From contig JAHFBZ010000001.1 of assembly GCA_023249725.1 (NCBI GenBank), positions 1 to 64,000 on the forward strand: a stretch of DNA of 64,000 nt. Reading direction: 5' to 3'. The position numbers and the translations under genes were made by a program. The notes beneath the pieces are model-generated. The model was given only the letters and a program-made list of their open reading frames with translations, searched no databases and was not told where the DNA came from. Shown here piece by piece: positions 5,216 through 34,617 of the stretch; within the stretch, counting starts at the first letter, position 1; every line of letters begins with the position of its first letter. The stretch is from Methanobacteriaceae archaeon (GTDB lineage: Archaea; Methanobacteriota; Methanobacteria; Methanobacteriales; Methanobacteriaceae).

Positions 5216-6757
5216 ATGAAAAATTCCTCAAAAAAATTTAATGGATCTGAATCATTAAAATCAACTGCTAAAGAGCCTTTAAAGGAATTAAAATCAAGTG
5301 AATCACCACAAAATGATGACTTGATTATTACTGAAGTTCCAGACTCCATCATAAAAACTCTGGAATCCCGAATAGATCACATGTGTGTGAAAAAAGACGA
5401 AGGTGATGAAAGAGGCCCATCATGTAACATGGCCTCTGTTCCAGGAGCAGTTACTCAAAGATCATGTGTATATGGTGGGGCCCGGGTAGTTCTAATGCCT
5501 ATAACTGATGCCATACATTTGGTACACGGCCCTATTGGATGTGCGTCTTGTACATGGGATATTCGTGGAAGTAGGAGTTCAGGAGAAGAATTATACAAAA
5601 AAGGATTTTCCACTAACCTTCAGGAAAAAGACATTGTATTTGGTGGAGAAAAAAAATTATTTGATACAATCATTGAACTCAATGGAATTTACAATCCCGC
5701 AGCCATATTTGTCTATTCCACCTGTGTAGTAGGATTAATTGGTGACGATTTAAAAAGTGTTGCCCGGGAAGCAGAAGAAATCACCAAGTGCCGCATCATA
5801 CCTGTTCAATCTGAGGGATTCAGAAGCTTTAATAAATCTCTGGGCCATCAACTGGCCTGTGATGCCATGTTGGATCATTTGATTGGGACTGGGGAACTGG
5901 AAAAACCGGAAAAATTAGGATTAGGTCAAAAATCATTGGCTTCAACTCAAGAAAAAGGTCCTACTTTAAATATTGTGGGAGAATTTAATGTGGCTGGTGA
6001 TTTGTGGGCCATACAGCCCCTAATTGAGAAAATGGGCATAACTGTTCAATCGGCCATAACTGGGGACTCCTGCGTAGAAGAAATAGCCAATGCCCATAGG
6101 GCTGATTTGAATATTGTGCAATGTCAGAAATCTTCTAACTACCTGGCCCGGCAAATGGAGGAAAAATACGGTATTCCTCACCTTAAGGTTAATTTCTTTG
6201 GGATTGAAGATACCGGGAAATCCCTACTTTCCATTGCTGATTTTTTCCAGGACCAATATCCTGAAATCAGGGAAATAGCTGAGAAAATAATTGAAACAGA
6301 AATAAAAAAGGTAAGATCTGAAATAAGCCACTATAAAACCAGATTAACCGGAAAAAGAGTAGCGGTTTACGTGGGTGGTAATAAGGCCTGGTCTCTTATC
6401 AGTGCCTTTGAAGAGCTGGGAATGAAAGTTATAATGACTGGAACTCAGAACGGACTACCTGAAGACTACCATCGAATAATGGAGACAGTAAGTGAAGGTA
6501 CTCTGGTGGTAGATGATGCCAACTCTATGGAACTGGCCAAGCTACTGAAAAAATATCATCCTGATTTAATTGTATCTGGGGCTAAAGAAAAATATATGGC
6601 TCACAAGTTAGGTATTCCTTTCTGTGACTTTAATCACGATAGAATAAGCTCATTTGCAAGTTTCAATGGATTTATAAACTTTGCTAAAGAAGTAGACCGG
6701 GCCGTTTCCAGCCCGGTATGGAAATTAACCTCAAAATATTATCAGGGGATAGTTTAA
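5216..6757 (+). CDS. nifE: FeMo-cofactor scaffold protein NifE
   Basis: NifE pairs with NifN to form the scaffold on which the NifB-derived cluster matures into FeMo-cofactor. The protein has 513 aa and resembles NifD: cluster Cys in [20 protein letters not shown] and [11 protein letters not shown], and a later [13 protein letters not shown] segment. About 45 N-terminal residues are a Ser/Lys/Glu-rich extension not needed for the fold. I start at the ATG at 5216 because GGTGGT lies just upstream; an in-frame TTG at 5204 has no ribosome site. A 261-base gap with a hairpin separates it from nifK, so it may have its own promoter. Confidence 0.93.
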
Positions 6758-6758
6758 A

Positions 6759-10962: not shown

Positions 10963-11802
10963 TCATTCCCCATTCACTTTTAATGGGATACAGGCCTTTC
11001 TGTGTTCTATATCAACTATTTTTACCTTTATATTGTATATTTCTTCCATATTCTCTTTGGTGATTACTTCTTCAGGAGAACCGATATCAATAAAGCTTTT
11101 TCCTTTCATTAAAGCTACTTTATTGGCGGAAATGAAGGCCTGATCAGGAAAATGGGATGACATTAATATGGAAAGTCCATTTTTGGCCAATTTTTCTATT
11201 ATATTGAGTGTTCGCATTTGATTTCCAAAATCAAGGTGCGATGTTGGTTCATCAAGTAAAAGAATACTGGGTTTTTGAGTTAATATGCGGGCCAGAAATA
11301 CCAGTTGCTGTTCTCCCCCACTTATTTCTGTGTATGATACATCTCGCATGTGGGTAATTTTGAGAGTTTTCAAGGATTCTTCCGCAATTTTAATATCTTT
11401 TTCTCCAGGGGAAGCAAACATCTCCAGGTGAGGGGACCTGCCCATGAGAACCACGTCTAGAACGGAAAATGGAAATGTTGAATTGTGTATTTGAGGTATA
11501 TAACCGATATTTTTAGCTATTTCTGTTTTATTAAGAGAATAAATATTTTTTTCATTAAATAAAATTTTTCCAGAGCTTAATTTCATCAGACCATTAATAC
11601 ATTTGATTAATGTAGTTTTACCTGTACCATTGGGTCCTAGTATGCAAAAAACGTCTCCCTTTTCCACTGAAAAATTAATATTTTCAAATATATTGTGTTG
11701 GCCGTCATAGGAGAAACTGGCATCAGATACCTGCATCAAGCAATTTTTTAAAATGTCTGAATTCGGCCTATCAGCAATAGTGGAGGGCCTTAAAATACTC
11801 AT
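10963..11802 (-). CDS. Metal-chelate ABC transporter ATP-binding protein (FecE/BtuD type)
   Basis: 279-aa ATPase. Walker A is GPNGTGKTT, the signature is ISGGEQQL and Walker B is LLLDEPTS; the typical FecE spacing is kept. It energises the adjacent permease for uptake of an iron chelate, corrinoid or oxyanion. I start at the ATG at 11802, which overlaps the permease stop as ATGA and has a GAGGGAT ribosome site. The ATG six bases earlier is too close to that site. It is the last gene of a three-gene run. Confidence 0.92.
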   Translation of the reverse strand: MSILRPSTIADRPNSDILKNCLMQVSDASFSYDGQHNIFENINFSVEKGDVFCILGPNGTGKTTLIKCINGLMKLSSGKILFNEKNIYSLNKTEIAKNIGYIPQIHNSTFPFSVLDVVLMGRSPHLEMFASPGEKDIKIAEESLKTLKITHMRDVSYTEISGGEQQLVFLARILTQKPSILLLDEPTSHLDFGNQMRTLNIIEKLAKNGLSILMSSHFPDQAFISANKVALMKGKSFIDIGSPEEVITKENMEEIYNIKVKIVDIEHRKACIPLKVNGE

Positions 11803-12890
11803 GACCATCCCTCTTTACTTTTTGCTAGAAGATATAGAAAGAAGGGAGCCCCAATTATGGCCGTCAATATACCCAGGGGAATTTCTACCGTGGTGATAGT
11901 ACGGGCCACATCATCTATTAATAGGAGAAAAAAAGCTCCCATAAAAATACTGGCTGGTAAAAGTACTTTATGGTCTGGCCCTACAATCATTCGAGTAATA
12001 TGTGGAATAACAAGACCTATCCATCCTATTATTCCACTTATACTGACTGCTGCAGCAGTAACGATAGTACAACAGGTTATTATAATGATGTGAAGTTTTT
12101 TAGTGTCAACTCCCAGGGTTTGAGCTTCGTCTTCGCCCATGGAAAGCACATTTATTCTCCAACGTATTAATAAGAGAATCCCACTGCCTACCACCATGGG
12201 CAGGGTAACCATTAATATGTCCTGGTTGGTAACGGCAGATAGACTACCCATTAACCAGAAAACTATGGTGGGTAACTGTTCATAAGGATCTGCCACATAT
12301 TTAATCATTGAGATAAATGCGGAAAACAGGGCCGCAATGGCTATCCCGCATAAAACCAAGGTGAGCATGGACGTACCTTTAAAGGTTTGACTAATCATGT
12401 AAGTCAGGCCCACTGCCAATAGTCCTCCCATAAATGCTGAAAATTGTACCATAAATGGACCTGCAACGAATAAAATGGCAAGAGCAGCTCCAAAACCGGC
12501 ACCGGCTGAAACTCCTAATTTATCTGGAGAAACCAGAGGATTTTTGAACATACCTTGAAATGAGGCCCCGGCTATGGATAAAGCCGCACCAACCATCATG
12601 GCAGCCATAATTCGGGGCAATCGAATTTGAAAAATAACTGCCTCTACTGAAGGAGGTATATTATAATTCACCAGTGTTGTTTTCGCAGCCAGGGCCATTA
12701 AAACCTCTGAAGGAGATATGGGATATCTGCCTATTAAAAATGAAATAAAAAATAAGATAATTAAAGGGATTACTAGTAAAGAAGTCACTGATAATTTTTT
12801 TACCAGAGAATTATTTATCCAGGACTTGCTAGCATTTGAATCATTAATATTCGCATCTTGGGAAGAATTTCTGAACCTTAATTTAGTCAA
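11799..12890 (-). CDS. FecCD/BtuC-type ABC transporter permease
   Basis: 363-aa polytopic membrane protein of the FecCD family, with about ten membrane segments. Recognisable parts are GRYPISPSEV near the N-terminus, RLPRIMAAMMVGAALSIAGA and the ISGIIGWIGLVIPHITRM segment. A polar N-terminal extension of about 35 residues precedes the first membrane segment. The start is TTG without a clear ribosome site, so the exact N-terminus is uncertain. It overlaps the ATPase gene by four bases. Confidence 0.92.
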   Translation of the reverse strand: MTKLRFRNSSQDANINDSNASKSWINNSLVKKLSVTSLLVIPLIILFFISFLIGRYPISPSEVLMALAAKTTLVNYNIPPSVEAVIFQIRLPRIMAAMMVGAALSIAGASFQGMFKNPLVSPDKLGVSAGAGFGAALAILFVAGPFMVQFSAFMGGLLAVGLTYMISQTFKGTSMLTLVLCGIAIAALFSAFISMIKYVADPYEQLPTIVFWLMGSLSAVTNQDILMVTLPMVVGSGILLLIRWRINVLSMGEDEAQTLGVDTKKLHIIIITCCTIVTAAAVSISGIIGWIGLVIPHITRMIVGPDHKVLLPASIFMGAFFLLLIDDVARTITTVEIPLGILTAIIGAPFFLYLLAKSKEGWS

Positions 12891-13022
12891 ATTATCAGCA
12901 GCCTGTTTTTTGGAATAACTTCTTTAAATTTTTTGAAAAAAATTTTTTAAAATCTTTAAGAATAATTTTTTAAACTATTAATATTTGTTTTTAAATTATT
13001 CTACAATTTTCTTCTCAAGTTT

Positions 13023-14093
13023 TCAAGTATTTTTCAAACCAGAAGAGCTTAATATATTGGTTGCTTCCTGGTCAGTTAGGTTGTAATGGTAATATTCGTT
13101 GTAGAATTCTTTGGTTATTTTTTTAAGATCCATGTCCTGGAATTTATCTGGATATAAGACTTTAGCGGTCCAGGGTATACCTATTATGGTATTGGCACCA
13201 GGAGGTCCTTCAAACCAGTTAAATGGTGATGTGGGGACCATATACACTTGTTTTTCTTTCACTGCTTTAACATCGGCCCATAATGAGTTAGAATAAATAT
13301 TATCATAGAAATGTTGATTACTGGTGATTATAACGTCTGGGTTCCACTGTAGTATTAATTCCATGGAAACTCCCACACTACCTTTTGTTAAAGGAGCTTC
13401 CACAACATTTTTTCCTCCGCAAATTTCAATAAGCTGGGTATGGGTAGAACCTGGAGGATTGGTCATTAGTCCGGTGGAATCCCGTGCATAATACACTTTT
13501 TTCCTTTCACTTTCTGGAATGGTGGATACAGTAGAATTAACTTCATGCATCATATCATTGTAAAAGCTAATTAACTTGTCAGATTGTTCCTTTTTACCGA
13601 GCACTTTTCCTAAAAACTCCAGTGAAGGTGTGATGCTGGTTAAATTATTGTCTCCTTCAATATCCAGGGTAGGTATTCTCCCAAACTTACTTTGAATTTG
13701 ATCCACCTGGTCTACAGTTCCTCCATGCCCTATCAGGACTATGTCTGGATTCATGGAGATTATATTTTCGTAATTAGCATCTTTTTTACCTCCTCCAATA
13801 ACCGGAAGGCTAGAATAAGTTGATTTCATGTAAATATTTTCTTTACGGGTTCTTTTTTCATTCCATCCGATCATCTTTTCCGGAGCCAGCATAAAAAGCT
13901 CTACAGTGGTGGATGCTGAAATAGAAGCGACTTTATTGGTTTCAGAGGGAATATCTACATTACGGCCCAGCATATCTGTAACTTGCTGGATATCAATGCC
14001 AATGGATTGGTTGGTGTCAAAAAATAGCCATACTACTCCGCTGGCTATGAAAATAATGGATATTACTAGAATTACAGGGGATTTTTGATTCAA
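13023..14093 (-). CDS. Metal-chelate ABC transporter substrate-binding protein (FepB/BtuF type)
   Basis: 356-aa binding protein of the helical-backbone class III family. A hydrophobic N-terminal segment (about residues 6-27) anchors or exports it; there is no lipobox cysteine. TDMLGRNVDIP, VIGGG and NPDIVLIGHGG are typical. I start at TTG 14093 because AGGTGA precedes it; the GTG at 14102 overlaps that site. Ligand is not readable: an iron chelate, corrinoid or molybdate/tungstate (as in the related MolABC system) are all possible. The molybdopterin enzyme next door mildly favours an oxyanion. Confidence 0.85.
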   Translation of the reverse strand: MNQKSPVILVISIIFIASGVVWLFFDTNQSIGIDIQQVTDMLGRNVDIPSETNKVASISASTTVELFMLAPEKMIGWNEKRTRKENIYMKSTYSSLPVIGGGKKDANYENIISMNPDIVLIGHGGTVDQVDQIQSKFGRIPTLDIEGDNNLTSITPSLEFLGKVLGKKEQSDKLISFYNDMMHEVNSTVSTIPESERKKVYYARDSTGLMTNPPGSTHTQLIEICGGKNVVEAPLTKGSVGVSMELILQWNPDVIITSNQHFYDNIYSNSLWADVKAVKEKQVYMVPTSPFNWFEGPPGANTIIGIPWTAKVLYPDKFQDMDLKKITKEFYNEYYHYNLTDQEATNILSSSGLKNT

Positions 14094-14102
14094 TGTATTC
14101 AC

Positions 14103-14429
14103 CTAGTTTTTTTCTGATTAAGATTTTACTTTATAAGAAATTAAGGATATTTTAGGATAGTTTTTTAAGATTAGGTTCTATTGGTGGAGATAATAATTTT
14201 ATTTCATTATTTAACTTATAATCATAATTAACTAATTGCATTAATAAACATATTGTTAACTTTTTTTCGATGTAACAATATTTTACTAGTACTTAAAATT
14301 CTTTATTTTTATTTTAAATTATACGCTGATATTTTTTAATTTTTTTATCAAGAATTATCGATATGTATTTATATTCTTTTCAATAAATCAAAAATATCAA
14401 ATTTTATAAAAATAAATGGAGAGGGGTAT
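14103..14429. other. Divergent promoter region
   Basis: This 327-base gap separates the substrate-binding protein gene (minus strand) from a surface protein gene (plus strand). It is very AT-rich. The plus-strand promoter is listed separately. I see no recognisable riboswitch or RNA gene. Confidence 0.5.
14351..14375 (+). promoter_or_regulatory. Promoter with ATCGATATG element upstream of TATA
   Basis: AGAATTATCGATATG is followed at once by TATTTATATT (TATA), 55 bases before the start codon of the surface protein at 14430. The same ATCGATAkG-TATA arrangement occurs before tupA, the FmdE-like gene and the ferredoxin gene. It may be a strong BRE/TATA variant or a regulator site. Confidence 0.5.
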
Positions 14430-17195
14430 ATGAGAAAGTCTTTAATTTCAACAATACTCATGTTTTTAATAATTAGTTTAATGGCAGGGTATGCTTTTGC
14501 AGATTCAGGAATAATAATTAATAATGGGGTGGATAATCCCCTGGTAAATATTGGTGATAATGTGACCTTTATGGTAAATTTAACCAATAATGGTTCTCTA
14601 AATTATACAAATGTTCAGATACAAGCATTGTTGTCGCCGGGATTACAATATATCTCTTCCAGCGGTACTTATTCTAATGCAACCGGGATCTGGAATGTGG
14701 GAAATTTAAAGTCTGGTGTTTCAAAACAGCTTTATATAACCGTGAATGTCCTGGATGCATTGAAAGGACAAATGGTGGATTTTAAATCGTCATTGTTTTA
14801 TAATGATCAAAATGCAACCGCCAATAATGGACTGGTGAGTCTCACCATAAGCAACAATTCCACTTCAAATAATACCAACAACACCACTAACAATACTAAC
14901 GCCAGTAATACGTCCAATATAATTTTAAACAGTATAGTGGATAAATCAACAGTTAATCCGGGAGATCTGATTAATTTCACGGTTTCTATAAAAAATAATG
15001 GAACCAAAGACCTTTCAGCTTTACAAATTCAAGCACTACTGCCCCCAGGTTTAGAATATGTATCCCACGGGAATAATATAACCAATAATAATTATACTGA
15101 CGGGATATGGTATCTAGGTAATTTAAGAGCAGGTAATCAAAAATATCTTAATATAACTGCCAGGGTATCTCTGAATCTGTCTGGTCAACAAACTAATTTA
15201 AATTTTAAATTAATGCCTAATGTACAAAATGCCACAGTCGCTGATTCCCTGGTTAATCTGTCAATTTCAAACAATACTGCGGGTATATTAAACAACAATA
15301 CTACCAGTTCCTTAGTGGAACCTAAGGATAGTGCATGGAAAAGCGATTTGCTGGATAATGGCAGTTCTTACACTTCTCTGGTAATGGATTCCTTAGGAAA
15401 CCATCATCTGATCTACACCCAATTGCCAGTTTTAAAATATATTTATAAAACCGAAAATGGTTGGATTAATGAAACCATAGCAAATAATACTACTAGCCGG
15501 GGAACTGGTTTTTATCCAGATTTGGCCCTAGATTCATCTAATAATCCACATGTGGTATATAATGATGGTAATACGGCTCTTAAATACGCTTACAAGGATA
15601 ATTCAGGTTGGCATTTCGAAAATATCTTTTCAGGAGATGTATCCTATACCAACATCATCATGAATAATAACAGTCCCTGCATAAGTTTCTTTGATAACGG
15701 GGCAGAAACAGTAAAATATGCTTACAAAAATGGCACAAGCTGGGTTGTGGAGTCAGTGGCCAAATCAGCTGGCCATTATAATTCTTTAATTTTGGATTCT
15801 ACGGGAAACCCCAGAATTGCCTATCATGATGATTACTATGGAGATCTCAGGTATGCCATGAGAATTGGCCCTAATGATTGGAAAAATGTTATTGTGGACA
15901 ACTCCACTCATGTTGGATCCTGGAACTCATTGACTTTGAATTCACAGGGAAATCCTCAGATAAGTTACATCTTACAGGATGGAGGACTTAAATACGCCCA
16001 ATGGAATGGAATAAACTGGATATATGAAATACTTGATAATTCCACGGCTCAGGGGACTAATATGGTACTGGACTACACAGGAAATCCCCAAATAGCTTAT
16101 TTAGACACAATTAATCAAGTATTGAAATTAGCTTATAAAGATCAAAATAGCTCAGCTTGGAATATACAAAACATAAATATCACTTCTGGTGTTTCTCCAT
16201 GGATTTCTCTGGCTATGGACTCTCTGGGAGTTCCCCAAATAGCCTATTCTAATGGTAATGGCTACCTGAACTATGCTTATCTTAACCCAATTGCTGCAAA
16301 AATTAATTCTACTCCAGAATCCGGTTCTTATAAGTCTCCTGTGAGCTTAATATTAACTCCAGATAAAAATGGAACTATTTACTACACCACAGACGGTTCA
16401 GACCCTCGTAATAGTTCCAGCAGACTGGAATATGTGGGTCCAGTTAATGTTAGTACAGAAGGCAATACCATAGTAAAATTCGCGGCCATAGGAAACTATA
16501 GTTACTGGAAAAATGTCTGGTCTGATGTTTACACTAAAAACTACACCTTAGATACTCACGCACCATCTGTAGCATCAGACGTCCCCAGTGGTAATTACAA
16601 CACCTATAAATATGTAAAAATTACATCAAGTGATTCTTCAACCATATATTATACTACTGATGGAAGCAACCCAGTTACCAGCCCAACTAAGATTAAATAT
16701 ACTTCAGCTATTAAAATAAGTAAACAAGGAACTAACAGTCTAAAATATTCAGCGGTTGATAGTGTAGGAAACTGGGCGGCAGTTAATACTAAAACTTACC
16801 AGTTAGCTTTTCCAACGGCTTCCTTAACAGTTTCTAACAAGGGCACGGGAAAGATATCCTTAATTTACTACTTAACAGTTCAACTACCGGACAATCAGAA
16901 ACAGTACAAGAAATTCAGCACAACTCTGTATCCTAACAAAGCATATGTTTTAAACCTGGGTAAATATCCAGTGGGTACTAAATTCACTTTTGCAAAGTTC
17001 ATCTACAATAAATCGCCCTACAGAAAGACAATAAATGTGTATAACAAGCTTACCATGACTGGAAAAACTGCTTTTACTCAGAGAATATACTTAACTAAAG
17101 TATATCCTTCTAAAAGGGTTTATTCATCAATTTTGATGGAAATGTCCAGTACAGGAATAAAAGCCAAGGTTTTACAAGTCCCTGTACGTAAATAA
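14430..17195 (+). CDS. Large secreted DUF11/adhesin-like surface protein
   Basis: 921-aa exported protein. A signal peptide (1-25, ending AGYAFA) is followed by two DUF11 repeats (about 28-125 and 165-285; NPGDLINFTVSIKNNG) and Asn/Thr-rich linkers. Residues about 305-640 hold repeats of the form SxGNPxIAY...LKYAYK, suggesting a beta-propeller. Two chitobiase C-terminal-like repeats follow (about 645-790), each with IYYTTDGS. There are many N-glycosylation sequons. No C-terminal membrane anchor is visible. Such proteins are probably bound to the pseudomurein wall and mediate adhesion or wall contact. GGAGAGG precedes the ATG. Confidence 0.85.
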   Translation: MRKSLISTILMFLIISLMAGYAFADSGIIINNGVDNPLVNIGDNVTFMVNLTNNGSLNYTNVQIQALLSPGLQYISSSGTYSNATGIWNVGNLKSGVSKQLYITVNVLDALKGQMVDFKSSLFYNDQNATANNGLVSLTISNNSTSNNTNNTTNNTNASNTSNIILNSIVDKSTVNPGDLINFTVSIKNNGTKDLSALQIQALLPPGLEYVSHGNNITNNNYTDGIWYLGNLRAGNQKYLNITARVSLNLSGQQTNLNFKLMPNVQNATVADSLVNLSISNNTAGILNNNTTSSLVEPKDSAWKSDLLDNGSSYTSLVMDSLGNHHLIYTQLPVLKYIYKTENGWINETIANNTTSRGTGFYPDLALDSSNNPHVVYNDGNTALKYAYKDNSGWHFENIFSGDVSYTNIIMNNNSPCISFFDNGAETVKYAYKNGTSWVVESVAKSAGHYNSLILDSTGNPRIAYHDDYYGDLRYAMRIGPNDWKNVIVDNSTHVGSWNSLTLNSQGNPQISYILQDGGLKYAQWNGINWIYEILDNSTAQGTNMVLDYTGNPQIAYLDTINQVLKLAYKDQNSSAWNIQNINITSGVSPWISLAMDSLGVPQIAYSNGNGYLNYAYLNPIAAKINSTPESGSYKSPVSLILTPDKNGTIYYTTDGSDPRNSSSRLEYVGPVNVSTEGNTIVKFAAIGNYSYWKNVWSDVYTKNYTLDTHAPSVASDVPSGNYNTYKYVKITSSDSSTIYYTTDGSNPVTSPTKIKYTSAIKISKQGTNSLKYSAVDSVGNWAAVNTKTYQLAFPTASLTVSNKGTGKISLIYYLTVQLPDNQKQYKKFSTTLYPNKAYVLNLGKYPVGTKFTFAKFIYNKSPYRKTINVYNKLTMTGKTAFTQRIYLTKVYPSKRVYSSILMEMSSTGIKAKVLQVPVRK

Positions 17196-17303: not shown

Positions 17304-18191
17304 ATGATGAAAATGCGAAATATTAAACCTTTTTTGACTGTTATCATGACATTTTTTATTGTGTGTTCAAGTTCGGGAATAGTGTTTGCCGATTCGAGTG
17401 GGTTTTTAACAGTTCAATTTAATAAACAATCGGTTAATGTTGGGGATCAGGTTCAAATAACTGTTACTGCGTACAATACTGGAACTGTGGCTTGGAACAA
17501 TGTTATTGTTTCTCTTCCTGTTCCTGATGGGCTAAAATATTTATCTCACTATACCTCAGTTTCTAAAGCTGACTATTCATCTTCTTCAGGTTCATGGGTG
17601 GTTGGAAACATGAGACATGATTCTAATGGTAAAACTAAAACTATTTACATATCCTTTGAAGTTTTACCATCTGCTGAAGGAAAAACAGTGAGAGCAAATG
17701 GTCATTTTAATAGCATCATTTTAGAAGCTACTCAAGCTCAGTTTGCCAGCCATGTGTCTTCAGCATCTCCAGACACATTAAAAGTTAATATAAATAAAAA
17801 TGAAACGGGTAATGGAACCGGTAATGGTAATGGTAATGGTAATGGTAATGGTAATGGTAATGGTAATGGTAATGGTAATGGTAATGGTAATGGTAATGGT
17901 AATGGTAATGGTAATGGTAATGGTACTGCTTCATTTTACGAAGAAATATTTGGTAATATAATCAACAGCGATAATACTACTGGCATAGGCAATAATCTGG
18001 AATACAAGGCGAATTTATTACAAAGCGGTGGTGGAGGTGAAGGCCAGGAAGGAAAAAATGCTTATGAGGTTACTAAAGAAAATACTGAACCTCAAAAAAC
18101 ACCTTCAAATTTATGGCAAGCTTTAATAGCCGGTTTAATAATTTGTGGTCTAATTGTATTTGGTTATTTCAAAGGTATACGGGGTAACTAA
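17304..18191 (+). CDS. DUF11 surface protein with (Gly-Asn)n linker and C-terminal anchor
   Basis: 295 aa. A signal peptide (about 1-29, ending GIVFA) leads into one DUF11 domain (about 35-150; VNVGDQVQITVTAYNTG), then a Gly-Asn repeat linker (about 172-207), a short acidic region and a C-terminal membrane segment (WQALIAGLIICGLIVFGYF) followed by a basic tail. It should face outward, tethered to the membrane. It lies 57 bases before an ExbB-like channel gene on the same strand, so the three are probably one operon. Several ATGs lie at the start (17304, 17307, 17313); the first is used here, with a weak ribosome site. Confidence 0.82.
   Translation: MMKMRNIKPFLTVIMTFFIVCSSSGIVFADSSGFLTVQFNKQSVNVGDQVQITVTAYNTGTVAWNNVIVSLPVPDGLKYLSHYTSVSKADYSSSSGSWVVGNMRHDSNGKTKTIYISFEVLPSAEGKTVRANGHFNSIILEATQAQFASHVSSASPDTLKVNINKNETGNGTGNGNGNGNGNGNGNGNGNGNGNGNGNGNGNGNGNGTASFYEEIFGNIINSDNTTGIGNNLEYKANLLQSGGGGEGQEGKNAYEVTKENTEPQKTPSNLWQALIAGLIICGLIVFGYFKGIRGN
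17820..17921 (+). repeat. (GGTAAT)17 hexanucleotide tandem repeat
   Basis: Seventeen perfect copies of GGTAAT lie within the surface protein gene, flanked by imperfect copies (GGAACC before, GGTACT after). They encode the Gly-Asn linker. Because the unit is six bases, slippage changes linker length without breaking the frame. Confidence 0.97.
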
Positions 18192-18248: not shown

Positions 18249-18896
18249 ATGATGGAAAATTTATTTAACAGTGAAATTTTAACCAGTGCTTTGCATTTAA
18301 TTTCCCAAGCACTTCTCATACCAGTAATAATAGGCCTATTACTATTTTTTGCCTATGCCTTAGTCAGCTTGGGAACTCTATTTTATGAATATTATCATAG
18401 AATTCGTATCAACATTAAGCAAATTGAAAGTATGATTATTTCCGTGGGAAATACTGAAAATCCTCAGAAAATAGTTGAAACGGTAAAAAATGCCCTTATT
18501 TCTCAAAATCAAAAGAATGCTTTGATTCAGTTAGCTGAAAGTTTCAGGATAAGTTCTAAATCTAGGGAAGCATTTGCCAGGAAATTGTTGGAATCAGAAG
18601 AAATAAAAGCGGCAAAGAAGCTAGAGAAAACAGACATAGTTACTCGATTAGGACCTACTCTGGGTTTAATGGGTACTTTAATACCAATGGGCCCTGGATT
18701 AGCTGCTTTAGGTGGGGGAGATATCCAGGGATTAGCCCAAGCCATCATTGTAGCTTTTGACACTACGGTAGTTGGTTTGGCTGCTGGGGGCCTGGCCTAT
18801 GTAATTTCTAAGATTAGAAGAAGATGGTATGAAGAAGATCTTTCTAACTTGGAAGTGATGGCTGAATCAGTTCTGGAAGTGATGAAAAATGCTTAG
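18249..18896 (+). CDS. MotA/TolQ/ExbB-family proton channel protein
   Basis: 215-aa membrane protein with three hydrophobic segments: about 15-50, [25 protein letters not shown] (about 135-165) and [21 protein letters not shown] (about 165-190). The last two match the TolQ/ExbB/MotA core that forms a proton path. The partner protein follows with an 8-base overlap, as in exbB-exbD pairs. A GAGGT ribosome site precedes the ATG. In bacteria such channels energise TonB or Tol; archaea have no outer membrane, so the target here is unknown, with the preceding surface protein the obvious candidate. Confidence 0.88.
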
Positions 18897-19227
18897 AAGA
18901 AGAAGTAGGAGGTTAATATCTATTGGAGGTGAAGAAGATCCCATGGCGGGCTCGGCCAATCTGGTGGATGCCATGTTGGTTTTGTCAGTGGGGTTTTTAA
19001 TTTTTTTAGTTATCTCATGGAATATGCAGAGTGTAATTTTTAGTGACATGACTCCTCAAGAACGTCAGGATACAATAAAAGCTATGAAAGAAGTAGCTCA
19101 AGTTAAAATGGGTGAAAAAATTAATGAAACTCCCCAATCTGCTTCTGGATTAGGGGAAGGAATGGAAGAAATGGGGACAGTATATAAAGATCCTAAAACT
19201 GGAAAATTGATTATGGTTCAAGGATGA
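18889..19227 (+). CDS. ExbD-like small membrane partner (DUF2149-like)
   Basis: 112 aa: an Arg-rich start, one membrane segment (about 27-46, [20 protein letters not shown]) preceded by Asp, and a polar extracellular C-terminal part. Layout and position match ExbD/TolR partners, with an acidic residue (LVDAM) at the edge of the membrane helix. I recall similar methanogen proteins as DUF2149, but this is from memory. It overlaps the channel gene by 8 bases. Confidence 0.75.
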
Positions 19228-20441: not shown

Positions 20442-21509
20442 TTATTTAAAAACATGAACGGCCGAGGCTTTAAATTGAATCCATAATGGAGAACCAATGG
20501 TAAGTTCCATGTCTAAAAAGGATTTTCTGGTCATGTAAACCATGAAAATTTCCCCTGAAACATTTATTTTAACATTAACCAATGCACCCTGCTTACTTAT
20601 CTCTGAAACTTCACCTTTGAATTCATTCAAGGCGCTGGTTTCTACTTTATTAAGGGAAATAGTAATATCTTCTGGCCGAATACTCGCATGAACAGGGCCT
20701 TTCAGTGATTCAGAGGAGTAAATGATTAATGAGCTAGTATTTATGGCAGATAATCCTTCGGAAGCAGCTTCAGCATGGCCCTGGATGATATTCTTAACCC
20801 CTACAAAATCGGCCACAAAACGATTCTTTGGTTTACTAAAAACATCTTCCGGGGAGCCAATCTGGAAAATTTTATGATTTAAAATGGCAATTTCATCACA
20901 TAATCTTTGGCCCTGGATTAAATCGTGGGTAGCCATTATAACTGTGGTTTCATTCTTTTTAAGCTCCAGGATTATTGATTCAATTTTTTCAGTGGACAGG
21001 GGATCCAGATTAGCAGTTGGTTCATCCAGAACTAAGAGTTCTGGTTCATTAATAAGCACTCGAGCCAGCGCCATTCGTTGGGTTTCCCCGCCAGATAGGC
21101 TGGAAGCATCCCGGTCTTCGTAACCTCCCAGCCCCAGGGATTCCAGTTTTTCACTTATTTTTCCTTTTAGTTCATTTTTGTCACGGCCTCGTATATCTGG
21201 GCCATAAGCCACGTTTTCCATAACGGTTCCTCTAAAAACCACTGGTTTTTGAAATACCATGCCTATTTTTCTTCTAATTTGAATTTTTTCTTTTTTTGAA
21301 GAATTTAATACATCAATATCATTAAAAACAATCTTTCCAGAATCAGGAGTTTCCAGCAAATCTATTATTCTCAGTAATGTGGTTTTTCCACATCCTGTGG
21401 GACCAATAAGTCCTAAATTAGTACCTTTTTTAATTTTAAGGTTAACATTACGTAGAATTTCTTCTTGATCGTATTTTTTAGAAATTCCATTTAATTCTAA
21501 AATATTCAT
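20442..21509 (-). CDS. tupC: Tungstate/molybdate ABC transporter ATP-binding protein
   Basis: 355-aa ATPase. Walker A is GPTGCGKTT (about 36-44), the signature is LSGGETQRMALARVL and Walker B is LLVLDEPTANLD. The C-terminal ~120 residues look like a TOBE-type oxyanion-sensing domain (ISKQGALVNVKINVSGE), as in ModC/WtpC. It is the last gene of tupA-tupB-tupC on the minus strand. AGGAGA precedes the ATG. It could equally be named wtpC or modC; the binding protein points to the Tup family. Confidence 0.88.
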   Translation of the reverse strand: MNILELNGISKKYDQEEILRNVNLKIKKGTNLGLIGPTGCGKTTLLRIIDLLETPDSGKIVFNDIDVLNSSKKEKIQIRRKIGMVFQKPVVFRGTVMENVAYGPDIRGRDKNELKGKISEKLESLGLGGYEDRDASSLSGGETQRMALARVLINEPELLVLDEPTANLDPLSTEKIESIILELKKNETTVIMATHDLIQGQRLCDEIAILNHKIFQIGSPEDVFSKPKNRFVADFVGVKNIIQGHAEAASEGLSAINTSSLIIYSSESLKGPVHASIRPEDITISLNKVETSALNEFKGEVSEISKQGALVNVKINVSGEIFMVYMTRKSFLDMELTIGSPLWIQFKASAVHVFK

Positions 21510-21588: not shown

Positions 21589-22275
21589 TTAATTTTCCTG
21601 TATCTGGTTTAGCATGAGATTGATAATAAGTGCAATACCCAGCAGAATAATTCCCAGAGCTATGGAAAGCTCTAAATTTCCTTTAGATGTTTCCAGGGAT
21701 ATGGTGGTGGTTATTACTCTGGTGGCCCCTCTGATATTTCCTCCAATCATAATGGCCACGCCCACTTCTGATATTGCCCTTCCAAATCCAAGAATCACTG
21801 CAGCCATAATGGCGTACTTAGCCTCGCGCATTATGGTGTAAATGGTCTGAAATTCACTGGCTCCCAGGGAAATAGATAAATCTGTGAGGTCTTTCCCCAC
21901 GGTTTTAAGGGCAGTAATAGTAAATCCAATTAATATGGGTAATATTAAAAGGGTCTGACCTATTATCATTCCGGTGGGGGTGAACAATAGATTTAGATCA
22001 CCGAATACTCCTTGTTGGGAGAGTAGTAAAAATACAAATAAACCCACAAGGACTGTGGGGAGACTATATAAAGTTTGAATTAGATTTATCAGACTTCTTT
22101 TGCCCTTAAATTTTTTAAAATTAATTAATCCTCCCAGGGGAATGGCAATCAGGGCTGCTATGAATGTGGCTGAAAGAGATATGAAAAGAGTACGGGTGGT
22201 TATTTCAACTAATTCTGGATTTAAGGTTAAAATTAGATTTATAGCCTGTAACATTCCATTTAAAAACTCGTTCAT
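21589..22275 (-). CDS. tupB: Tungstate ABC transporter permease
   Basis: 228-aa permease with about five to six membrane segments and the cytoplasmic loop motif FGRAISEVGVAIMIGGNIRG, which contacts the ATPase. The segment GGNIRGATRVITTTISLETSKG is typical of TupB. GGTGG lies before the ATG. It sits 103 bases after tupA and 79 bases before tupC. Confidence 0.9.
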   Translation of the reverse strand: MNEFLNGMLQAINLILTLNPELVEITTRTLFISLSATFIAALIAIPLGGLINFKKFKGKRSLINLIQTLYSLPTVLVGLFVFLLLSQQGVFGDLNLLFTPTGMIIGQTLLILPILIGFTITALKTVGKDLTDLSISLGASEFQTIYTIMREAKYAIMAAVILGFGRAISEVGVAIMIGGNIRGATRVITTTISLETSKGNLELSIALGIILLGIALIINLMLNQIQEN

Positions 22276-22378: not shown

Positions 22379-23260
22379 CTAAGTAGGTTCACCTTTTCCA
22401 TACAAGGGAATAAAAAGTGCTTGTCCGTATTTTTCTTTACCATAGTTTCCAATTAACTGCTGGCCCTCGGTTGATAAGAGGAAATCAACAAATTCCATGG
22501 AAGCATTATAATTTACGCCTTTTATCTTTTCTGGGTTCACTGGTATGGCAGAATAAACATTTAAAAGATCTTTACCACTGGTCAGGTAAGGAACTAAAGT
22601 TATATTTCCTTTAAATGCCAGGTAAGTACCAGAATCAGATAGAGTGTAAGCCGATTTTTCATTGGCAATGACTAAGGTATCACCCATTCCTTTTCCAGTT
22701 TCAATGTACCAAGAAGATCCATTTATACTGGAATTGTAATTGGCTTTAGTATTATTCCAGATTTTCAATTCACGAGAGTTGGTCCCGGAATTATCTCCTC
22801 TGGATACAAATTTTACGGAAGAATTTGCTTCTCCAGCTTCCATAATCTTTTTAAATGCTTCTGTGGCATTTTTCATGCCTTTTATTTTCGCAGGATCGCT
22901 GGTTGGTCCCACAATATAGAAGTAGTTGTAGGCAAATGGATATCTCTTGGTTCCATATCCATCGTCTATGAATTGCTGTTCTTTCTTTTTATCGTGAACT
23001 ATGACCATATCGGCGTCACCTTTTTCGGCATATTTAAGCGCGATTCCAGTTCCTGCTGAGACAAATTGCACATCGATGTTGGGATGTTCCTTCTCAAAAG
23101 CGGTTTCTAAGTTATCAACCAGTCCAGTATCTTCTAAACTGGTTGTGGTTGATACTCGAAGGATTTGCTTTTCCTGGAAACCCCCATTCATGGCATAAGC
23201 CCCAACACCTATCAATGCAATAATTATTATTAATATTGCTGCTATAATCTTATTATTCAT
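22379..23260 (-). CDS. tupA: Tungstate ABC transporter substrate-binding protein
   Basis: 293 aa. An N-terminal hydrophobic segment (about 4-24) exports or anchors it; there is no lipobox. The ligand-site motifs of TupA are visible: STTTSLEDTGLVDNL, FVSAGTGIALKYAEKGDADMVIVHD and SRGDNSGTNSRELKIW. TupA proteins bind tungstate very tightly and discriminate against molybdate; selectivity here is not readable. GGAGGT precedes the ATG. The promoter carries the ATCGATAkG element. Confidence 0.92.
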   Translation of the reverse strand: MNNKIIAAILIIIIALIGVGAYAMNGGFQEKQILRVSTTTSLEDTGLVDNLETAFEKEHPNIDVQFVSAGTGIALKYAEKGDADMVIVHDKKKEQQFIDDGYGTKRYPFAYNYFYIVGPTSDPAKIKGMKNATEAFKKIMEAGEANSSVKFVSRGDNSGTNSRELKIWNNTKANYNSSINGSSWYIETGKGMGDTLVIANEKSAYTLSDSGTYLAFKGNITLVPYLTSGKDLLNVYSAIPVNPEKIKGVNYNASMEFVDFLLSTEGQQLIGNYGKEKYGQALFIPLYGKGEPT

Positions 23261-23324
23261 TTTTAACCTCCAAAATATTAATTAGAATATTAATAATTTC
23301 TTAACAAAAATGATTTATCGAATT

Positions 23325-23350
23325 GAATATATAATCCTATCGATTTTCTT
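23325..23350 (-). promoter_or_regulatory. tupA promoter with ATCGATAGG element
   Basis: On the minus strand AAGAAAATCGATAGG is followed by ATTATATATTC, a TATA box about 65 bases before the tupA start. The element matches those before the FmdE-like gene, the ferredoxin gene and the surface protein at 14430. Confidence 0.5.
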
Positions 23351-23491: not shown

Positions 23492-23701
23492 ATGAAAATA
23501 AGTGCTAGAAATTCATTAAAAGGAAAAGTGGAAGAAGTCAAGGAAGGGGTTGTAACCGCCACAATAAAGATGAAAATTGAAACTCCAGGCGAAATTACAG
23601 CCACCATTACCAAAGAAGCCGTAGAAGATCTGGGCTTAAAAGTTGGTGATGAAGTAATGGCTATTATTAAATCCAGTGAAGTAATGATTGCCAAAAAGTA
23701 A
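23492..23701 (+). CDS. mop: Molbindin (Mop), molybdate/tungstate-binding protein
   Basis: 69-aa single TOBE domain: ARNSLKGKVEEVKEGVVTATIKM and VGDEVMAIIKSSEVMIAK match the Mop family. Such proteins form hexamers that store or buffer molybdate and tungstate in the cytoplasm. It is transcribed away from tupA, across a shared 231-base promoter region, and has an AGAGGTG ribosome site. Confidence 0.92.
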   Translation: MKISARNSLKGKVEEVKEGVVTATIKMKIETPGEITATITKEAVEDLGLKVGDEVMAIIKSSEVMIAKK

Positions 23702-23733: not shown

Positions 23734-24402
23734 TTAAATTTTTCTATATTTATTTTTTCTTTTTTGACTATTAACGATACTTTTTCTTAAAAAATGACCT
23801 AAATCATTTATTTTCTGGCCGGATAATTTTTCATATTCTTTTAAAAACTTTAGTGCTATAAATATTTTATCAGGATTATCCACTTTGTTATCTAGAATGA
23901 AAACACAGATTTCGCTTAAATCTTGTCGAGGATCTCCAAATAATTTTTCTTCAAAATCAAGGCCATAGATCTGGTTTTCATAGTAAATAAAATTCCTCAA
24001 ATTACAGTCTCCTTTTAAATAGGATTTTTTATTCTTCTTCTGCTTGGAATTCAATTTTATGGAATGCAATTTGAACATCCAGCAGGCTAATTTTTTAATC
24101 CACTCTCCTTTATTTAGTCTGTAAGCTAAATCACTCACCAAAACCCCGGGTATGTATTCTATTATATTGTAATGATCTTTGTTTTTTTTAACATGAGGAA
24201 CATTAAGACCTTCTCTATTTAATTTAATAAGATTTTTATACTCTATGTTACTTTTTAACATGGAATTGGGCTCTGAATAAAACTTCATTATAAATGGGGT
24301 AGTTTTATTATCCGAGGATTTAATTAGAAAGACATTATTACGTCTACTGAATAAATGTTGATATGATAATTGGGAAGGTGAAAATAAATTATTATTTTTC
24401 AT
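23734..24402 (-). CDS. Phosphotransferase-like (kinase-fold) protein
   Basis: 222 aa, distantly like aminoglycoside phosphotransferase or Bud32-type small kinases. FIMKFYSEP could hold the ATP-binding lysine, KGDCNLRNFIY is an HxDxxxxN-like catalytic loop with Gly replacing the usual His, and YGLDFEEKLFGDP is a DFG-like metal site. I use the ATG at 24402; the TTG at 24441 has no ribosome site. It lies 67 bases after the FmdE-like gene on the same strand. Substrate unknown. Confidence 0.55.
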   Translation of the reverse strand: MKNNNLFSPSQLSYQHLFSRRNNVFLIKSSDNKTTPFIMKFYSEPNSMLKSNIEYKNLIKLNREGLNVPHVKKNKDHYNIIEYIPGVLVSDLAYRLNKGEWIKKLACWMFKLHSIKLNSKQKKNKKSYLKGDCNLRNFIYYENQIYGLDFEEKLFGDPRQDLSEICVFILDNKVDNPDKIFIALKFLKEYEKLSGQKINDLGHFLRKSIVNSQKRKNKYRKI

Positions 24403-24469
24403 AATTATCTTTAATCTTAAATAGAATTTATTATAAATCAAAAAAAATAATAATGGGAGAGGTTTAAAC

Positions 24470-26938
24470 CTACTTCCCTAACTTTTCAGATTTTTTCAGA
24501 ATGGAACTGATGTTTTCTCTACTAAAGTATAGTCCCAGAGCAAAAATACTTAATAAAAGTAGAGTCACCATTGTTACCATGGGCATACCACTTACAGAAG
24601 TTGTTGAGGCTGTAGATTTCTCTAAGGGTAATCCTGAAGCAACTTCTTTAGTAGTTTCACTAAACTGATCAGTTGCTAAAACTGTATTCAAAGCACTTAT
24701 AATTTCTTCAGATATTGTACCTTGATCTACAGGACTAATTGGGTTTGCTGGTCCTGAAGGATCTGTTGTAGGATTAGTTGTCGGGTCGGTGGGATTTGTA
24801 TTATTATCTGTAGGTGGAGTAACTGGAACTACGTAATTTAATACGAATTGAACCGGGTCTCCTCCGGCAGCTAACATGGTACTTAACTCTTTTTGAGTAA
24901 TTGCTATTTCCCTTGTAACATTAAATGCACTCAAAGCCTCTTCATAACGCTCTTGTCCTGGAAATGCCTTTTCTAAATACCATAATGCCCAGTACATGGT
25001 TTTATAGTAATAGTTGTTACTACCCACATCCTGGTTTTGCATGGCATTTATAAGGTCACGGTTCATATCCAGTACTATTGCTTTACCAGTATGGGTACTT
25101 TCGCTCCACAGAATAAATATTCCTGCTAAATTAGCATTTGATGTATATCCTGATAAACCCAAGCTATAATAAGTACCTAAAGCTGTAGAAACACCTAAAG
25201 AATCGATTATAACCTGTTCTTTACAATGAGCCGGTATGCTGATAGTTATATATTGCTGCCCAAGCGCTAAAGGATATTTATTTAAAACATAATTGGCTAT
25301 TAAATATCCCTGTGATAGCCCCGAACCCGGACATCCACCACCTATACCTGAAATTTGATAATCATAGGGTACTCCGACGGCCCACTGGTTTGCTAGACTC
25401 ACTATGTAATAATCTTGCTGGAAGTAAGGCTTATCTGCAGCACCACCTGAAAATGCAGCCGAAACTGATTTTGCATAGGCATTATTTTTAAGGGCCTCAG
25501 CTGAGATATCGTATACTTGACTTGCTATGAGAGCACCATTTACATAATTCACAATCATGGCATTCAACTCTGCACCGTCTTTTTTGACAAAAGTGAACCA
25601 TAATGGCTGCCACATGGCTCTTTTAAGATTCATCAAATTAGACAGTTTAGTGCCAGTAACACTAATTGCTCCGTCAAGTGCCCCTTGAGTTGAAACTCCA
25701 TTTAAAAGCACATAACCTGCTGAACTAAGCACGGCTAAATCAGAATCTCCTTTTTGGAATCCAAGTACATTTTTTGCCAGTAATGCGGCCTGCTCTCCAA
25801 TATTATACATATTATTATAATCATTGGTTGTTAGGACATTACTGATCAAGTAGTCCTTACTTTCGTCAGTTAAACCATTAATATAATTTTTGTCTATACC
25901 TTTAGACCATAAATAGTCGAAATTTTCTTTATTTATAGTTTTTAGGCTGTCTATATTAATCAAAACGGCAGGATTATTATTTAACTTGTTCAATAACCAG
26001 TTATTAAACTTTATTTCACTTATAGTACCACTTACTACAGATAGGCCAGTTTCAGTGCTGAACTGACTATTCAAATTTTGAGAACTCATTAAAATGAGAA
26101 CCCCAGTTTGAGATACTCTATTCCACCACATATATGCGGCCTGGTTAGGATCTCCATTATCCATGGCCATATAATTGAAATAACTTACTTTATTGCTGTC
26201 TCTAACCCATTTTAAAGGTGTTAATTCCAGTAAATATTGAGGAACATTGTCATCGCCTCCCCCAGGAGTGGTTATGATGTGGTAAGACTCACTGTCACTT
26301 AATAAAGGATAATTCTGATTTATACTTTTGGACATTACATATCCACTTAAAAGTCCTTGAGATACTCCACCACTGGAACCTGCTATTCTTAAAAGATCAA
26401 CGGGAGCACCTGTGGCCCAAGCATTAGCTATACTGGCTATTTCAAAAGAATTAATTCCTAATTCAGTTTTTGCTTTATTCCAGTCTGATGCGCTGATATA
26501 ACTGGAAATATCAACAGTTTTACTTGATGTTATACTTAATTCAGAACCGGTTGTGGTAGCCCGGTATTGTTTGGCCATTAATTTGTTTCCTTTTTTTGTT
26601 ACAAATGTAAATGATAGAGTTCCTAATGGGTCAGAAATTCCAATCAAATTTCCTTTCCCAACGCTGATCTTCTGTTTATCTGGTTTATTGCTGGTTGCAT
26701 CAACCACGCCCTGCAAACTGTCTTCGGTACTCATATTTTTGTAATGTGCTGATCCACCGTTGGATATGCATAAAACATCATCAGAATTAGAAAAATTTAA
26801 TCCTGGATCTGAAATAGCGTTTTTTGTCACTAATTCTCCAATATTATAATTTTCTGTTGCTGAAGCAGATCCACAAATGAATAAGGCAAATAGGAATACT
26901 GATACAATTAACAAGAATTTATTTTTTTTATTATTCAC
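24470..26938 (-). CDS. Duplicated FmdE-like secreted, membrane-anchored protein
   Basis: 822 aa. A signal peptide (MNNKKNKFLLIVSVFLF..SASA, about 1-27) is followed by two related halves of about 350 residues, a Pro/Thr/Asn-rich linker and a C-terminal membrane helix. The second half has an FmdE-like core: ANQWAVGVPYDYQISGIGGG, then CPGSGLSQGYLIANYVL and AHCKEQVIIDSLGVSTALGTYYSL. The first half matches (ANAWATGAPVDLLRIAGSSG, GVSQGLLSGYVMS) but lacks both cysteines. FmdE family members occur beside formylmethanofuran dehydrogenase genes and bind zinc. I start at GTG 26938 because GGAGGTG precedes it; the upstream ATG at 26980 lacks a ribosome site and would spoil the signal peptide. Confidence 0.7.
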   Translation of the reverse strand: MNNKKNKFLLIVSVFLFALFICGSASATENYNIGELVTKNAISDPGLNFSNSDDVLCISNGGSAHYKNMSTEDSLQGVVDATSNKPDKQKISVGKGNLIGISDPLGTLSFTFVTKKGNKLMAKQYRATTTGSELSITSSKTVDISSYISASDWNKAKTELGINSFEIASIANAWATGAPVDLLRIAGSSGGVSQGLLSGYVMSKSINQNYPLLSDSESYHIITTPGGGDDNVPQYLLELTPLKWVRDSNKVSYFNYMAMDNGDPNQAAYMWWNRVSQTGVLILMSSQNLNSQFSTETGLSVVSGTISEIKFNNWLLNKLNNNPAVLINIDSLKTINKENFDYLWSKGIDKNYINGLTDESKDYLISNVLTTNDYNNMYNIGEQAALLAKNVLGFQKGDSDLAVLSSAGYVLLNGVSTQGALDGAISVTGTKLSNLMNLKRAMWQPLWFTFVKKDGAELNAMIVNYVNGALIASQVYDISAEALKNNAYAKSVSAAFSGGAADKPYFQQDYYIVSLANQWAVGVPYDYQISGIGGGCPGSGLSQGYLIANYVLNKYPLALGQQYITISIPAHCKEQVIIDSLGVSTALGTYYSLGLSGYTSNANLAGIFILWSESTHTGKAIVLDMNRDLINAMQNQDVGSNNYYYKTMYWALWYLEKAFPGQERYEEALSAFNVTREIAITQKELSTMLAAGGDPVQFVLNYVVPVTPPTDNNTNPTDPTTNPTTDPSGPANPISPVDQGTISEEIISALNTVLATDQFSETTKEVASGLPLEKSTASTTSVSGMPMVTMVTLLLLSIFALGLYFSRENISSILKKSEKLGK

Positions 26939-26984
26939 ATTTTCACCTCCTATTAATGTGATAATGAATATATTATCCATATGT

Positions 26985-27008
26985 AAATATATACATATCG
27001 ATTTTCTA
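26985..27008 (-). promoter_or_regulatory. Promoter with ATCGATATG element (FmdE-like gene)
   Basis: On the minus strand TAGAAAATCGATATG is followed by TATATATTTA, about 50 bases before the GTG start. It matches three other promoters in the window (14351, 23325, 28367). Confidence 0.5.
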
Positions 27009-27119: not shown

Positions 27120-28127
27120 TCATTTGGATTGTTTTAGGCTATTCAATCGTTTATCCCACGAAGTGGAACGTACATTTGCTAGTCGCATGTCAATACGTTC
27201 TATAACTATTCCTTTTTGAGGACAAGCTCGTTCACAAGCCCCACATAGAACACAAAACTGAGGGTTAATAAATGAATGGTTATCCACCATACTAATGGCA
27301 TTGCATGGGCAAACATCCTCACAAGCGTGGCATGAATCTCCTTTGCACTCAAAATTCTCTTCAAAGGTTATATTTCCTTCAAATGGCTTGGTAACATGGG
27401 CTGCATCAACTGGACAAATTTCCTGGCACCAGCCACAATTTATGCACTGGTCTTCATCAAGAATTATATCTCCATCTACTGCGACGGGCTTAATATTGTC
27501 TCTATTCATACAAGTTGTACAAACAATTTTAATGGCGTCTTCAGGACAAATACGTTTACATATTCCGCAGTAAATACACTTTGATTCGTCTATTTTAGTG
27601 CTGCTGCCAACGTAGGGTTTATCGGAACTGACTTCATTTTTTTCAATGGTAATGGCATCTGCAGGACACATTTCTTCGCACATACCACAGTAAACACACT
27701 TATCCAGATCTACCTCTGTTTCTCCAAATACTAAATCCGATCGAGCTGGTAATTTTCTTTGTAGGTGTATAGCGTCTCTGGGACAAGCTATGGCACATTT
27801 ACCACAGTAGATACATTCTTTCTCATCTATGGATGCATTATGGTTCCATTGTGGATATTGTTTCATATGCCGTGTATTTTCATCATTTATACAAAATTCT
27901 AAAGCATCAAATGGGCAAGAAGAAGCACATAATCCACATAGGCAGCATTTTTCTTGGTTAATACTTATATAATCACTTTTTAAAAGTCCTCTTGCTATGG
28001 GAAGAATGGGGCCCAGCCGCAGGGCGCTAGTGGGACAAATATCTGTACAAATACCACATCCTAAACATTTTTGGTTTTTATGTTCTAGAGAACGATTTTG
28101 CTTTCCTTCTCTTTTTACAACTACCAT
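27120..28127 (-). CDS. Polyferredoxin with eight [4Fe-4S] motifs
   Basis: 335 aa, almost entirely ferredoxin repeats. Seven canonical CxxCxxCxxxCP motifs are visible (for example [36 protein letters not shown]) and one variant ([14 protein letters not shown]), giving up to eight clusters. An additional CTTC pair lies near residue 205. FwdF and MvhB/VhuB-type polyferredoxins wire methanogen enzymes in the same way; this one has no hydrogenase or fwd gene beside it. It begins four bases after the ferredoxin gene stop, so the two are co-translated. Confidence 0.9.
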
Positions 28128-28131
28128 TTTA

Positions 28132-28323
28132 TCATTCCTTCACTATGGCCTGGCTGGGACAGTTTTGTATGCAAATATCACAATCGTCACACTTTTCTGA
28201 AATAAATACAATTTGGTTGTCTTTTTCTTCTAATGCTCCTTTTTCACAGAGTTTGATACATAATCCTTCTCCAGGGCATTCTGATATTCCTTCGCATTTT
28301 TCTTGGTCAATAATCACTGGCAT
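28132..28323 (-). CDS. Small two-cluster ferredoxin
   Basis: 63 aa with two cluster motifs: [21 protein letters not shown] (irregular spacing) and [15 protein letters not shown]. This resembles FwdG-type or similar small ferredoxins of methanogens. The ATG at 28323 follows GGAGG; a longer frame starting at 28380 begins with residues foreign to ferredoxins. It is the first gene of a ferredoxin-polyferredoxin pair and its promoter has the ATCGATAkG element. Confidence 0.85.
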
Positions 28324-28366
28324 TAGATGGGCCTCCACATAATTGATATATAATAATTCACGAAGT

Positions 28367-28390
28367 GAATATATAAACATATCGATTTCT
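28367..28390 (-). promoter_or_regulatory. Promoter with ATCGATATG element (ferredoxin/polyferredoxin)
   Basis: On the minus strand AGAAATCGATATG is followed by TTTATATATTC, a strong TATA box about 48 bases before the ferredoxin start. Same arrangement as at 14351, 23325 and 26985. Confidence 0.5.
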
Positions 28391-28407
28391 ATAAAAAAAT
28401 AAAATGT

Positions 28408-34508: not shown

Positions 34509-34617
34509 TGCCGGGAGCGGGATTCGAACCCGCGGCCTCACGGTATCCCAGGAAAAAGTCAGAGCACTGCTTAATACCCTATGAGCCGTGCGCTCTAACC
34601 AGCTGAGCCACCCCGGC
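34509..34617 (-). tRNA. tRNA-Met (CAT), elongator type, with intron
   Basis: Reading the minus strand, GCCGGGG pairs with TCCCGGC in the acceptor stem, the D-stem is GCTC/GAGC, the anticodon stem CACGG/CCGTG and the T-stem GCGGG/CCCGC with TTCGAAT loop. The anticodon CAT is at 34581-34583. A 35-base intron (34545-34579) interrupts the loop after the base following the anticodon, the canonical archaeal site. Mature length is 74 before CCA, which is not encoded. The stem differs from an initiator and from tRNA-Ile2. Confidence 0.93.

Follow-up and report, generated by a model that had tools for sequence, protein, structure and literature searches.

A membrane-anchored, duplicated FmdE-like protein beside tungstate-type uptake genes in a Methanobacteriaceae archaeon, and its possible part in capturing or sensing scarce metals at the cell surface

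The window analyzed here is the whole of a 64,000-nucleotide stretch of a Methanobacteriaceae genome (contig JAHFBZ010000001.1). It carries an open 822-amino-acid reading frame (Table 1) whose GTG start codon at 26938 is preceded a few bases upstream by a good ribosome site, AGGAGGTG. The first-pass annotation described the product as an exported, membrane-anchored and internally duplicated FmdE-like protein, and this architecture was borne out: a signal peptide, a Thr/Pro-rich, stalk-like stretch and a C-terminal helix are recognizable by eye, and the two halves are homologous (26% identity, E 5e-11). A CPG motif (C536) and an HC pair (H571, C572) were located in the second half alone, as had been claimed. 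Judging from the sequence, both repeats probably face the outside and are held by the single helix. The neighbors named in the first pass (tupABC, mop, a ferredoxin and a polyferredoxin) were checked with profiles, the Tup names being best matches only, all three ABC genes scoring below the curated equivalog cut-offs. Upstream in the window, nif genes and a gene for a formate-dehydrogenase-alpha-like molybdopterin protein (368-8207 and 8796-10820) give the region a resemblance to a Mo/W island; a FecCD/BtuCD-type ABC transporter (10963-14102) is divergent from the exported DUF11/ExbB operon. A 109-nt Rfam tRNA match (model 71) at 34509-34617 on the minus strand was missed by ARAGORN and is probably an intron-bearing tRNA.

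Table 1. Coordinates of the locus features, in window positions.
Feature	Position	Strand	Remark
Core of promoter element, upstream of exported-protein/ExbB/DUF2149 operon	14357..14376	+	
Exported DUF11-repeat protein, first gene downstream of the 14357 element	14430..17195	+	
Exported DUF11 protein with anchor tag	17304..18191	+	
MotA/TolQ/ExbB-type channel	18249..18896	+	39.6 bits, cut-off 22.9
DUF2149 protein	18889..19227	+	81.6 bits, cut-off 27.1
TupC/WtpC-like ATPase with TOBE domain	20442..21509	-	WtpC 323, below cut-off 440
TupB-like permease	21589..22275	-	170, below cut-off 320
TupA-like tungstate-type binding protein	22379..23260	-	182 bits, cut-off 400 not reached
Promoter element upstream of tupA/mop	23315..23349	-	35-nt repeat
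Mop-like TOBE protein	23492..23701	+	Mop profile 79.6, over cut-off 55
APH/RIO-like kinase kin, partner gene	23734..24441	-	GDCNLxN and DFE conserved
Exported, membrane-anchored double FmdE-like protein (window clade), 822 aa	24470..26938	-	open ORF
C-terminal membrane helix, aa ~785-805, then ~17-aa basic (Lys-rich) tail ending GK	24524..24586	-	by eye
Second FmdE core, aa ~524-690	24869..25369	-	2glz_B Z 10.4, model 499-665 (add 25)
Motif PAHCKEQ, aa 569-575 (H571, C572)	25214..25234	-	invariant, window clade
Motif GGGCPGSG, aa 533-540 (C536)	25319..25342	-	invariant, window clade
First repeat, aa ~28-350	25889..26857	-	without HxHxC, without Cys at FmdE ligand positions
Signal peptide, aa 1-27	26858..26938	-	by eye
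Palindromic promoter element upstream of double FmdE gene	26973..27007	-	35-nt repeat
FwdF polyferredoxin	27120..28127	-	NF042909, 438 bits, over cut-off 375
82-aa ferredoxin	28132..28380	-	profile
Promoter element upstream of ferredoxin-FwdF operon	28357..28391	-	35-nt repeat

The promoter element that the first pass had seen to be common to the gene and its neighbors was found as a 35-nt repeat at tupA/mop, the double FmdE gene and the ferredoxin operon, with an extra core ahead of the ExbB-DUF2149 operon. With up to 3 mismatches, the pattern ATCGATATGTNTNTATATTC has six matches in the window, two of them being opposite strands of a single site, where 0.18 would be expected; the whole genome has 12, compared with 4 for a reversed control pattern. 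Five genome sites remain at no more than 2 mismatches, four of them the window promoters; these counts are descriptive because the pattern was made from the very sites counted. A weak copy (3 mismatches) lies at 252, ahead of nifH. Genome G134, which has the same gene order as the window (ferredoxin-FwdF-double FmdE gene-kin-mop region-tupABC), carries three operator sites, and the one ahead of its double FmdE gene is a nearly perfect palindrome. In a related genome, G004, the ferredoxin-FwdF-tupABC genes are present and the double FmdE cassette is absent, with FwdF abutting tupA, and the operator is kept at the ferredoxin gene and tupA (2 and 4 mismatches). This distribution suggests that the double FmdE gene, tupABC, the ferredoxin/FwdF genes and the ExbB-DUF2149 operon are co-regulated.

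Likeness to FmdE was assessed by sequence profiles and by predicted structure. The Pfam FmdE profile (PF02663) scores the protein at 18.4 bits, below its cut-off of 22.9, and the sub-threshold match covers residues 380-459, off the FmdE core (aa ~524-690); it was dropped as evidence since the structural model puts the core elsewhere. No FmdE entry was returned by a PDB sequence-profile search with the 822-residue protein, an NCBIfam profile search with it gave no match, and the FmdE profile did not match the window-clade relatives L114 and L115 at E 0.01. An AlphaFold2 model of residues 26-715, built from an alignment with 27 relatives (pLDDT 77, pTM 0.80), has FmdE-type structures as its top three Foldseek rows in the PDB (2glz_A, 2glz_B and 2gvi; probability 1.00 but E 0.03-0.05). 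The top three structures by VIA-align are 2glz_B (Z 10.4, rmsd 3.7, 141 residues aligned), 2gvi (Z 7.8) and 3d00 (Z 7.5), over model residues 495-665. The fold check proposed in the first pass thus came out in favor of an FmdE-like core, as predicted for the second repeat only, the first repeat being assigned through its homology to the second. In the model of a relative from the sister clade described below (L079; pLDDT 80, pTM 0.79), the first repeat itself resembles 3d00 and 2glz_B (Z 10.2 for each). The domain ahead of each core gave a serine dehydratase domain, 2iqq, at Z 7.0 only, which is in the tool's 'common' range, and no claim is made for it. The likeness to the FmdE family (2GLZ, 2GVI, 3D00) therefore lies in the predicted core fold of the second repeat and in its Cys residues at ligand positions; unlike that family, the window protein is exported, anchored and duplicated, has an additional domain ahead of each core, lacks the His ligands and stays below the Pfam cut-off.

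According to the available text of PMC2954224, FmdE proteins bind metal through two His and two Cys (HxHxC plus Cys), the B8FYU2_DESHY structure has mixed Zn and Ni at this site, and a relative in which one each of the His and Cys is missing carries an anion, which was modelled as chloride, in place of the metal. The second repeat of the window protein has both Cys and neither His, and the first has none of the His/Cys ligands. An intact FmdE metal site in the second copy is accordingly not supported, though a different Cys/His motif is conserved there; the missing FmdE His ligands had gone unmentioned in the first pass.

Within the family, a protein search turned up relatives of the double FmdE-like protein in 51 of 138 genomes. 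Across the phylum set, profile matches came from 122 of the 151 genomes, many of these matches being short and on the C-terminal anchor region of 1480-1690-residue reading frames taken as CobN-like. Exported double-FmdE proteins are widespread in Methanobacteria and form two clades, so that export of FmdE copies in itself lacks the novelty implied by the first pass. In a tree of 53 rows, for which the program gives a long-branch warning, five window-clade proteins (SH-aLRT 98) and the outliers L118 and L119 stand apart from 46 others (100). The window-clade profile exceeds 1200 bits in seven of the 151 genomes, and the next genome reaches 316. Viral contigs held no relative, and a plasmid search gave no match. 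The taxon words used here for compared genomes ('Methanothermobacter-like', 'Methanobacteria') were inferred from kinship labels, gene content and named records. Four contigs labelled as bacterial MAGs (L081, L095, L100 and L102) carry genes of the larger clade, which we call clade A, and are probably mis-binned methanogen contigs.

The two clades differ at the putative metal site. Clade A proteins, represented by one on contig C77 of the same genome and one at L034, share the architecture of the window protein at about 30% identity, with both repeats homologous. They differ in having HxHxC in both repeats and a Cys in the second, a Ni/Zn-type site: HxHxC occurs twice, together with a C(K/R/D)(D/E)D motif, in 44 of 44 full-length reading frames counted, a count that leaves aside the short proteins L067-L070 (neither motif), the fragmented genes of L125, L127 and L129, and two pieces of L036 with one HxHxC apiece. 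Within the window clade, GGGCPGSG and PAHCKEQ are invariant in all five proteins, which come from three families, and HxHxC is found in none of these reading frames; the window protein is 36-41% identical to three members from other families. The outliers L118 and L119 have neither HxHxC nor the window-clade motifs. A decayed clade A copy is ruled out by the Cys motifs invariant between families and by a dN/dS of 0.23, which indicates purifying selection on the window-clade gene. It is quite unlikely that the window protein is a Ni-, Co- or Zn-binding surface protein like those of clade A, its Mo/W setting reflecting general metalloenzyme co-regulation. Two Cys and one His do remain near the site, clade A adjoins CbiM, CobN, ExbB and DUF2149 genes, and CobN lies beside the homologue L114; against this, the His pair of the FmdE cation site is missing from all five window-clade proteins, whose neighbors are Mo/W genes rather than CbiM.

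Linkage to Mo/W genes recurs beyond the source genus, so that the second refuting outcome named in the first pass, no conserved linkage with metal genes, did not occur. Tup linkage proper is seen in that one genus only. In three Methanothermobacter-like genomes (G144, G148 and G150), the gene and kin adjoin tfx, fmdE, fmdCD, fmdB and a WtpC-like/ModB/DUF364/ModA set, families that were profile-checked in G144 and assigned in G148 and G150 by similarity to it. FwdF-like genes lie further on in G148 and G143, the latter also having a ferredoxin-like gene. In G140 the genes next to it are kin and mod-type ones, and fmdECB lies about 20 kb off. The outlier L118 belongs to a fwd locus with FwdF and FwdA. 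A short contig of G139 shows kin and CobN and no Mo/W transporter. Tfx scores above its cut-off in five of the 151 genomes, all among the eight that have kin. The available part of PMC3087415 describes a molybdate transporter next to fmdECB and repression of tfx transcription by tungstate. Because the transporter varies in type by lineage (TupA-type or ModA-type), the recurring element would be a shared function rather than one hitch-hiking gene. The window protein also differs from the Tup/Wtp/Mod transporters that it adjoins, and with which it shares an operator in the source genome, in that the best fold matches of its model are FmdE proteins and not a solute-binding protein. In other families, no copy of the operator was found next to the window-clade gene: loci L114-L119 and L152-L154 have no site within 3 mismatches, and four stray matches with 4 mismatches occur in L115, L118, L119 and L154.

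The partner gene kin occurs in eight of the 151 genomes, namely the seven of the window clade and G143, where a remnant of the double FmdE gene remains (Fisher p 2.6e-11 for co-occurrence, relatedness ignored). Its catalytic-type residues are invariant in four aligned sequences, and the kinase is apparently active. This near-perfect co-occurrence and adjacency would fit a sensor rather than an uptake part, in which Mo/W or another anion would be detected by the ectodomain and the signal carried by the kinase, with the cytoplasmic tail or a regulator as its phosphorylation target. Window-clade tails also exceed most clade A tails in length, contain Ser/Thr and have GK or SK as their last residues. 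Given a single helix whose tail is short, the lack of a recognized partner regulator, and the same kind of tail in the outliers L118 and L119, whose genome (G138) has no kin match, we regard a pure sensor as unlikely.

The window-clade gene appears to be dispensable, being sporadic, interrupted in three of seven genomes (G140, G148 and G150; stops in L116, L117 and L153) and nearly deleted in G143, where 24 codons remain beside kin (L152). Such losses, along with the stalk-like region and the anchor, could suit an adhesin-like surface or cell-wall protein that retained the FmdE scaffold but plays no part in metal handling. An operator held in common with tungstate-type uptake genes and Cys motifs invariant across families speak against such a protein, which we consider very unlikely.

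Clade A genes have a different neighborhood from those of the window clade, with CbiM, small HPGHG and AHGID proteins, CobN, DUF2162, ExbB and DUF2149. Among 38 clade A loci, HPGHG was found at 28, CbiM and AHGID at 25 each, DUF2162 at 18, and ExbB and DUF2149 at 17 each, and nine had no CbiM, ExbB, DUF2149 or DUF2162; the sample was 40 loci hand-picked from a longer list, of which L071 had no member and L035 belongs to the window clade. As a specific partner DUF2149 is weak, since it is present in 135 of 151 genomes. On C77 (L130) the order is double-FmdE, HPGHG, CbiM, AHGID, exported CobN (910 bits), DUF2162, ExbB, DUF2149, and this cluster and that at L034 (43-10475) resemble hmuSTUV plus a metal ECF component. 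In the available text of PMC10434189, the S, T, U and V genes of the Bacteroidota heme-iron system hmuYRSTUV are annotated CobN, hypothetical, MotA/ExbB and DUF2149. C77 thus has CobN, ExbB and DUF2149 in the order of hmuS, hmuU and hmuV, on which the likeness rests, and adds FmdE and CbiM. The window locus has counterparts of HmuU and HmuV in its ExbB and DUF2149 genes (18249-19227) and has no CobN-like HmuS, the sole CobN match of the genome being that on C77. A tag of the form (K)(S/A/N)AYEV(S/T)K, possibly an anchor or sorting signal, stands ahead of the last helix in the window protein at 17304-18191 and in two proteins at L034 (7461-10475 and 931-5295); it is missing from the window double-FmdE protein.

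The FmdE-like fold, the invariant motif, purifying selection, co-occurrence with kin, Mo/W neighbors and the shared operator together lead us to propose that the double FmdE-like protein is the putative surface part (ectodomain) of a Mo/W-responsive module that captures or senses Mo/W species, a proposal to which we give about an even chance. The first repeat would play a structural role, and in the second a Cys plus His-Cys site would have taken the place of the FmdE cation site (two His and two Cys), its ligand being Mo or W in the form of an oxo- or thio-anion or a metal complex. The bound species might then be handed to the TupA-like binding protein or reported to the cytoplasmic kinase via the basic tail, and the common operator over the TATA box would switch on the gene with tupABC, ferredoxin/FwdF and the ExbB-DUF2149 operon. 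Sister clade A, with its intact Ni/Zn-type site, would supply the equivalent part for Ni/Co beside CbiM and exported CobN. Cys and His are, to our knowledge, not a usual oxyanion site, and this counts against the Mo/W module, as do the dispensability of the gene, tup linkage in a single genus, the G139 contig, the missing motif of L118 despite its fwd locus, and the absence of the operator beside the gene in other families.

Methanogens need the metals Ni, Co, Mo and W; we know of little description of how these organisms, which have no outer membrane, gather such metals at their surface. In titles and abstract openings of a literature mostly outside subscription journals, no description of the exported double-FmdE family was found. 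The surface metal-acquisition or sensing role suggested in the first pass gains support from the predicted FmdE-like fold and the recurrent Mo/W linkage, a support that does not extend to the pterin ligand also suggested there. The context of this locus, together with relatives beside Ni/Co or Mo genes in other methanogens, points to an undescribed surface system that captures or senses scarce metals. More tentatively, and less likely than not, the exported double-FmdE protein of Methanobacteria may be a single scaffold whose site can be exchanged to capture different metals at the surface. In one version, HxHxC plus Cys would serve Ni/Co together with CbiM, exported CobN acting as a dechelatase and an ExbB-DUF2149 drive; in the other, GGGCPGSG plus PAHCKEQ would serve Mo/W species, accompanied by a kinase of its own and, within this genus, by an operator common with tungstate uptake. 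If so, the clade A cluster would be an archaeal counterpart of hmuSTUV. Work on the heme dechelatase HmuS published in 2025 calls, in its available text, the archaeal use of the many HmuS homologues unclear (PMC12583661). In clade A clusters, such CobN-like homologues stand with a metal protein of the FmdE type and a component of a metal ECF transporter; the window clade hints at a branch for Mo/W, and both clades are directly testable in genetically tractable methanogens.
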